From assembly GCA_947626505.1 (NCBI GenBank), contig CANQSN010000002.1, positions 1 through 64,000 of the forward strand: DNA of 64,000 bases. The letters run 5' to 3'. The DNA is from an uncultured Lachnospiraceae bacterium (GTDB lineage: Bacteria; Bacillota; Clostridia; Lachnospirales; Lachnospiraceae). This document shows, piece by piece, positions 12,727 to 34,844 of this stretch; the first letter of the stretch is position 1, and every line of letters starts with the position of its first letter. The notes under the pieces are model-generated. The model searched no databases and was not told where the DNA came from. It worked only from the letters and a program-made list of their open reading frames with translations. Made by a program: the position numbers and the translations under genes.

Positions 12727-12742
12727 AATAATCCTCCAATAT

Positions 12743-12786
12743 GTTACTCGCCGCCTATAAAAGTGAAAGTCATCTCCCATCTGATA
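12743..12786 (-). repeat. Intergenic repeat family copy A (TATCAGATGGGAGA...GGCGGCGAGTAAC)
   Basis: Minus strand TATCAGATGGGAGATGACTTTCACTTTTATAGGCGGCGAGTAAC, alignable to copy B at 33364-33407. Confidence 0.8.
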
Positions 12787-12805
12787 TATAACTGTGCAGG
12801 CGCTG

Positions 12806-32688: not shown

Positions 32689-33261
32689 TTACACATTATA
32701 TATCAATATGTGTTTTTTCACCTTCTCCAAAAACTCCATATTGGTTTCTTCAGAATAATTGATTTCTTCCAGAATCTTATTCATTTCACTAATGTTATGA
32801 ACCATTATAATCTCCATAGGAAATCCCGCATTTTTAAGTATCTTATTCAAATACTGTTTTACCATATCTGTAGAAATCTTAGATGTAACGTTAATCATAA
32901 GGCAATAGAGCTTTCCCTCCACTAAATATATGTATGGGGAGTACATAATGACATCCTCAGACGCAAGAGTCACATCATAAATAGTAATGCCAAACTTTTT
33001 ATCTCTGGTGTGTTCATCCAAGTCCTCAATACTCTGACTGTCAAGCGTATGGTAATCAATTACTACAATTACTGCCACCAAATGCTTGGCTCCCGGCAGA
33101 ACAAGAAGTATTGCGCTTATATAGCATAACAGTATAACAGCTTTATATTCCACAAACAGCGTTGCCAAAACTAACACCAGTATTAAAAATGCATATATTA
33201 AAACAGCAATGCAATGCTTTTTTTTATATTGGTTCATATAACCATAATCGCCCTTGTTCAT
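32689..33261 (-). CDS. Uncharacterised protein with two N-terminal TM helices and a cytosolic domain
   Basis: ATG at 33261 after AAAGGAAA; HCIAVLIYAFLILVLVLATLFVEYKAVILLCYISAILLVLPG hydrophobic hairpin. ORF-track start at 33372 lies in the repeat element. Confidence 0.7.
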   Translation of the reverse strand: MNKGDYGYMNQYKKKHCIAVLIYAFLILVLVLATLFVEYKAVILLCYISAILLVLPGAKHLVAVIVVIDYHTLDSQSIEDLDEHTRDKKFGITIYDVTLASEDVIMYSPYIYLVEGKLYCLMINVTSKISTDMVKQYLNKILKNAGFPMEIIMVHNISEMNKILEEINYSEETNMEFLEKVKKHILIYNV

Positions 33262-33324
33262 AATAATATTTCCTTTCCATCTTGAACATAATACCATCTT
33301 TTTGCAATTATGGCAATTTATATT

Positions 33325-33407
33325 TATCAGATGGGGATTGAATCCCGCCGCTGATACAAATTTGTTACTCACCGCCTATAGAGGCGGGAGTCGTCTCCCA
33401 TCTGATA
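33325..33407. repeat. 83-bp MITE-like intergenic element with 11-bp perfect terminal inverted repeats (TATCAGATGGG / CCCATCTGATA), copies C+B
   Basis: Left TIR 33325-33335, right TIR 33397-33407; internal hairpins GGGAT-tga-ATCCC, CCGCC-tataga-GGCGG, GGGAG-tcgt-CTCCC; abuts GH1 stop codon (33408-33410). Confidence 0.85.

Positions 33408-34844
<1,437 letters not shown>

Follow-up and report, generated by a model that had tools for sequence, protein, structure and literature searches.

What is the 83-bp repeat at positions 33325-33407 of the window, i.e. the whole 64,000-nucleotide stretch of Lachnospiraceae DNA analysed here, and does its folded form belong to a mobile element or to the gene beside it? 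An earlier note on this DNA had described the repeat as a MITE-like element with perfect 11-bp terminal inverted repeats abutting a stop codon, with the look of a nested composite, and had allowed for either non-autonomous transposition or a structured 3′-UTR RNA. Direct reading of the window sequence confirmed that 33325-33335 (TATCAGATGGG) and 33397-33407 (CCCATCTGATA) are perfect 11-bp reverse complements, and that the repeat contains CAAATTTG, the listed inner hairpins and a left 32-bp part that starts with TATCAG and finishes with CTGATA. The GH1 ORF (33408-34829, minus strand; PF00232, E=2.8e-131) ends at 33408, and its stop codon therefore abuts the repeat, as had been described. When both strands of the 83 bp were folded, each gave an energy of ~-36 kcal/mol compared with ~-20 kcal/mol for shuffled sequences (z-scores of -4.73 and -4.65 for the two strands), and 0 of 200 shuffles were equally stable.

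We searched the organism's own assembly (2.25 Mb in 115 contigs, 84% complete) with the 83-mer by nucleotide search. About 26 loci, i.e. not fewer than a handful, matched at E<=1e-5, and the repeat is therefore not a chance structure. When the copies were set in one orientation, many of them ran on for ~95 bp further on one side, and a consensus of this longer unit, read by eye, could be aligned end to end with 7 own-genome copies, plus further partial ones. On the minus strand of the window, the order of parts in a complete copy is a hairpin (P1), (TA)CGCTCCGCGAGGATGCGC, a ~9-bp stem that encloses an inner hairpin, and a 3′ hairpin with the end CTTGA(A/C). In its long form P1 is ~83 bp, with an additional hairpin inside it and the TATCAG motif present for a third time; this third copy is the source of the nested look. 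The long form of the whole element is about 175-190 bp in length and the short form, which lacks the extra hairpin, ~125 bp. The 11-bp repeats serve as the paired arms of a single 5′ hairpin rather than as transposon ends, and full copies continue beyond them. The ends of the element itself, CTCAG.../...CTTGAC (or TATCAG.../...CTTGAA), are not complementary, so there are no terminal inverted repeats, and palindromes lie near both termini (P1 at the 5′ end and the 3′ hairpin at the 3′ end).

In a survey of 27 own-genome loci, ~11 were full-length or nearly so and reached the 3′ end, 5 carried internal deletions of 51-101 bp with both extreme ends kept, and 11, including the window copy, kept the 5′ part alone; the end-finding script behind these counts left the variant 3′ end of copy L003 (AAGCTTGAA) unscored, and copy L017 lacks its 5′ end. 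The palindrome-only loci were the window copy, L011, L023 and L026. Among truncated Lachnospira copies, a search for a gene-bearing parent returned only internal deletions and decayed ends, with no gene between the ends. In L140, L306 and further loci of two genomes (G060 and G061), the inner-hairpin loop carries a hairpin-rich insert of ~80 nt at a shared position, which suggests a nested sub-element or a subfamily.

The window copy has no 3′ end and kept only the 5′ part in the own-genome comparison, and is therefore a P1-only remnant. Its features are as follows.

33325..33407, minus strand (the canonical strand): P1-only remnant, the 5′ palindromic module in its long form, from the alignment of own-genome copies; full copies lie elsewhere.
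33397..33407, minus strand: 5′ arm of P1 and true 5′ end of the element, reading TATCAGATGGG on this strand, from the sequence and the own-genome alignment.
33325..33335, minus strand: 3′ arm of P1, reading CCCATCTGATA on this strand, from the alignment; full copies continue from it into the core CGCTCCGCGAGGATGCGC.
33368..33390, minus strand: inner hairpin CTCCCGCC-tctata-GGCGGTGAG, the counterpart of the hairpin in other genomes that resembles an IS605 left end.
33344..33356, minus strand: third, internal copy of the TATCAG motif, reading TATCAGCGGCGGG on this strand, which gives the 32-bp nested look, from the sequence and the comparison of copies.
33408..33412, minus strand: A+T-rich 5′ flank TATAA at the position of the target motif, containing the GH1 stop TAA, from the sequence.

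The core, the branched stem and the 3′ hairpin are missing from the window copy, and a scan of the adjoining window DNA with a model of the core gave no match. The best reading is that it is a decayed fragment of the longer element, and without a 3′ end it is probably immobile. The TATAA beside it may have been its target motif; the GH1 gene is intact because this flank includes its stop codon. An exact 24-mer from the window copy had no match in the genome contigs or viral contigs, and GH1 and its neighbour gene do not occur together in congeners, which therefore offer no empty site for this copy. Two other observations concern the window. A second, shorter remnant of the 5′ module lies at 12738-12791; its broken end directly precedes an RBS-like stretch and the initiation codon of a gene on the minus strand (GGAGGATTATTATGG). 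A 227-aa ORF with no Pfam match occupies 32689-33372 on the minus strand; its mechanical start is a GTG inside the element, and its true start is likely to lie downstream of this GTG.

Beyond its own genome, the full-length consensus matched relatives in 6 other genera (60 genomes searched) and had no match in 4 congeners. The pattern AWACGCTCCGCGAGGATGCGC occurred in at least 120 stretches of one-genome-per-species data and in no viral contig; by their titles, nearly all of the matches listed come from Lachnospiraceae or related Clostridia. More than 40 matches each were found in Eubacterium oxidoreducens, Lachnospira multipara, L. pectinoschiza M83 and Lachnospiraceae bacterium C10, and many matches across these four genomes were 95-100% identical between genera, in either the 191-bp long form or the 125-bp short form. 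A covariance model of the core detected it at E<=1e-4 in 76/150 Lachnospiraceae genomes (one per genus), the E-values being rough, such that the weakest of these 76 matches may be due to chance. Rfam covariance models run over the element gave only far-below-threshold matches, with no family at gathering score, and we found the element described neither in Rfam nor, by sequence or topic, in the open-access papers covered.

The core sequence CGCTCCGCGAGGATGCGC is near-invariant across genera, and the stems around it covary. For the core alignment we used a structure drawn by hand from its first row, because the automatic structure from RNAalifold missed the main stem. In 28 diverse cores, two-sided changes were present at 24/30 core pairs, and 85.6% of the cells in paired positions could pair, whereas shuffles reached 66.9% and alignments with a slid partner 32-43%; a structure taken from one member favours the unslid version, although the gap to the slid partner is nevertheless large. 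The arms of P1 paired at 11.9/14 positions with their own partner versus 7.7 with the partner from another copy, and the main stem at 7.1/8 versus 3.5; the own-arm register was the best fit for both helices, which somewhat favours the own-arm figures. The core also contains TCC-GCGA-GGA, a GNRA-type hairpin. The pairing across copies for which the earlier note had asked is therefore conserved, and conserved pairing alone cannot tell a selected RNA from a selected folded ssDNA. Two divergent members from one genome (loci L033 and L046 of G031) have the core GCCTCCGGCGGATTGCA, and their outer stem shows a compensatory change from GCGC/GCGC to TGC/GCA.

Insertion sites were examined in ~70 copies from four genomes. 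The sequence upstream of the target motif was unconserved, the motif itself was TTTAA with its T's partly degenerate (a few long-form copies were anchored by the script at the inner motif, slightly lowering the T frequencies), and the 3′ end was CTTGA, followed by C in 91%. The first empty site was found between Lachnospira flanks that are 98% identical, and a joined-flank search then gave 11 contiguous alignments of L. multipara with L. pectinoschiza, of which 10 were empty sites, some of them fuzzy at the junction, and one (L309) retained a remnant of the element. At the clean empty sites (L305/L330 and L233/L334) TTTAA was pre-existing, and CTCAG...CTTGAC had been placed 3′ of it with no duplication; L208/L331 fits the same pattern, with substitutions just 3′ of the junction. 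Four empty sites deviated from TTTAA by 1-2 bases (CTTAA, CGTAA, CTTGA and, at the first site, TTTGA). In Lachnospira, the element inserts 3′ of a pre-existing TTTAA-like motif without target duplication, and the duplications that the earlier note had proposed to look for were absent from these sites. The intergenic region that holds own-genome copy L005 was likewise empty in all 4 congeners. Type-A copies were intergenic in 86/94 cases; 56 were co-directional with both neighbours and 11 were opposed. This bias is compatible with insertion on the lagging-strand template, with the direction of genes as a confounder.

Members of the IS200/IS605 family integrate on the 3′ side of a motif of four or five nucleotides; the hairpins near their ends are bound as ssDNA by the transposase, which acts on the lagging-strand template (PMC6006769, PMC7290912). 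The inner hairpin of the long form in Eubacterium oxidoreducens is 84% identical over 38 nt to the left-end hairpin of an L. multipara IS605 element of the tnpA-tnpB type; the inner hairpin of the window copy matches a Clostridium fessum IS605 over only 17 nt at 88%. Five IS605 copies in a relative (G029) sit after TTTAAC with differing flanks, and TTTAA for the element and TTTAAC for IS605 amount to a common target motif, observed in different genomes. The right end of the element (TTGAC) is dissimilar to the putative IS605 right ends (TTCAC and GTCAC), and the conserved core has no counterpart in standard IS605. In the same relative, two IS605 copies (L071 and L075) contain the core module of the element between tnpA and tnpB, and others (L063 and L066) are without it.

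A profile search for the Y1 transposase (PF01797) found none in the own genome (84% complete assembly), none in L. pectinoschiza, which has >40 copies of the element, and none in relative G015, despite its near-identical copies. Y1 genes were present in several other carrier genomes, and across 60 relatives their presence does not follow the element (5/7 with it versus 27/53 without). TnpB (PF07282) was found in only one relative when the own genome and 6 relatives were searched, and is therefore not required. In one genome (G014) a RAYT-like Y1 gene of 270 aa has a copy of the element (L070) ~400 bp upstream; this gene is flanked by different repeats (CCGGGGACGGAGACAGGTTCCG), and we judged its proximity to be probably coincidental.

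A second group of copies shares the same core and has P1 arms such as TTTTTTATGTAATAGG...CCTATTACATAAAAAA. In this sister subfamily, which was assigned by sequence pattern, a simple hairpin test found a hairpin plus T-run preceding 30/44 copies, compared with 15% of control T-runs and 15/71 type-A copies. Several sister copies (L096, L144, L155, L169 and others) lie directly behind intrinsic terminators of the host, such that the terminator T-run is the 5′ arm of P1 and its partner is the A-run of the element; L155 and L169 hold tandem copies. The 3′ foot of P1 complements the T-rich flank in type-A and sister copies alike, and pairing between foot and flank may select the target. One subfamily resembles an integron attC site (TTTAAC...GTTAAAC), an idea rejected by eye since other subfamilies lack the motif, and inspection of the terminator-linked subfamily for a group II intron revealed no domain V-like sequence.

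Our preferred reading, to which we assign a probability of about 0.7, is that the 83 bp are the 5′ module of a gene-less, PATE-like element of the IS200/IS605 type that is mobilised in trans as folded ssDNA. We infer both this mode of mobilisation and a target choice based on pairing: a Y1 HUH transposase (IS200/IS605 TnpA), supplied in trans by other elements, would cut the element out and insert it in the form of folded single-stranded DNA, insertion would probably take place on the lagging-strand template, and the P1 bases facing the target (TTAAA, or A-runs in the sister subfamily) would take part in its recognition. A tentative alternative, which we hold to be improbable, is that the core marks a distinct, family-wide gene-less class whose target is set by pairing of the 3′ foot of P1 with the T-rich flank, and which may be moved by an enzyme not yet known or act through an RNA; the two groups would then be subfamilies with re-programmed targets, i.e. 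TTTAA with a TTAAA foot and terminator T-runs with an A-run foot. We consider it unlikely that a structured RNA, either the element itself or its product, underlies the spread of the element by way of an RNA step or its retention for an RNA function. On that view the conserved pairing would reflect the activity of the RNA, and a tie to transcript 3′ ends would explain why the sister subfamily lies behind terminators. The very strong covariation, the GNRA-type capped hairpin, the invariant 19-nt core and the excess of sister copies after a hairpin and T-run (30/44 versus 15% of control T-runs) would all suit such an RNA. However, a HUH enzyme reading folded ssDNA would conserve pairing too, ssDNA transposition is in keeping with both the IS605-like left end and insertion after a fixed pentanucleotide without duplication, no Rfam family matches, and both ends are retained in internal deletions that have lost the core.

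However it arose, the window copy could now form a structured 3′ end of the GH1 mRNA, serving stability or end formation, much as the 3′-UTR RNA envisaged in the earlier note. The repeat lies immediately 3′ of the stop codon and folds at -35.7 kcal/mol on the GH1 strand with its 11-bp stem still perfect, but neither a terminator-like T-run nor a terminator call was found 3′ of the hairpin, GH1 is not beside the same gene in congeners, and other copies lie in unrelated places. With no terminator-like tail behind the hairpin, a role for GH1 is conceivable yet unsupported, and we consider it quite unlikely. The reading with the lowest probability, which we regard as very unlikely indeed, is that the 11-bp repeats are the ends of a classical MITE mobilised by a DDE transposase; the perfect inverted arms and the few palindrome-only loci in the own genome (the window copy and the three others) would agree with it, whereas most well-preserved copies extend past the arm, the true ends are not inverted repeats, and there is no target duplication in Lachnospira. 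The earlier idea of a non-autonomous mobile repeat is supported by the many copies and their conserved pairing, and not in the form of a classical MITE, as the complete element is ~175-190 bp with no inverted repeats at its ends and with no target duplication at the sites in related species.

With its core scoring in 76/150 Lachnospiraceae genera and dozens of near-identical copies in some, the element would count as a major gene-less repeat in bacteria that abound in gut and rumen, and the covariation together with the ready-made empty sites makes two questions testable, i.e. which transposase moves it and whether the target is read by base pairing.

Among known systems, classical MITEs are similarly short, gene-less, present in high copy number and accompanied by deletion derivatives, but the element described here lacks terminal inverted repeats at its true ends and makes no target duplication. 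Like REP sequences with TnpA-REP (RAYT), it is a high-copy intergenic hairpin repeat linked to Y1-type enzymes; unlike them it is much longer and composite, and a dedicated tnpA was seen nearby only at L070, probably by coincidence. With IS200/IS605 elements (IS608 and ISDra2; tnpA with or without tnpB) it shares duplication-free insertion on the 3′ side of a short motif, which is TTTAA in this case, subterminal hairpins and the close match of its long form to the L. multipara left-end hairpin (84% over 38 nt), whereas it has no genes, and its right end and core are unlike those of the IS605 elements compared. The closest comparison is with PATEs, gene-less relatives without terminal inverted repeats or duplication and with palindromes near their termini (PMC3119063), which come from Haloquadratum walsbyi (PMC3119063), with one PATE-like element in Halanaerobium (PMC7290912). 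The element is likewise gene-less, with true ends that are not inverted repeats, near-terminal palindromes, no target duplication, an IS605-type palindrome at the left end, and both terminal-only and core-deleted versions. It differs from PATEs in its structured core, whose near-invariant sequence and covarying stems extend across many genera, in hairpins that are flush with both ends and in a sister subfamily at terminator T-runs. The testable features of PATEs are thus found here, the likeness to IS605 being at the left end only, and the element is best filed as a variant within the PATE kind, of which the window copy is merely a fragment.
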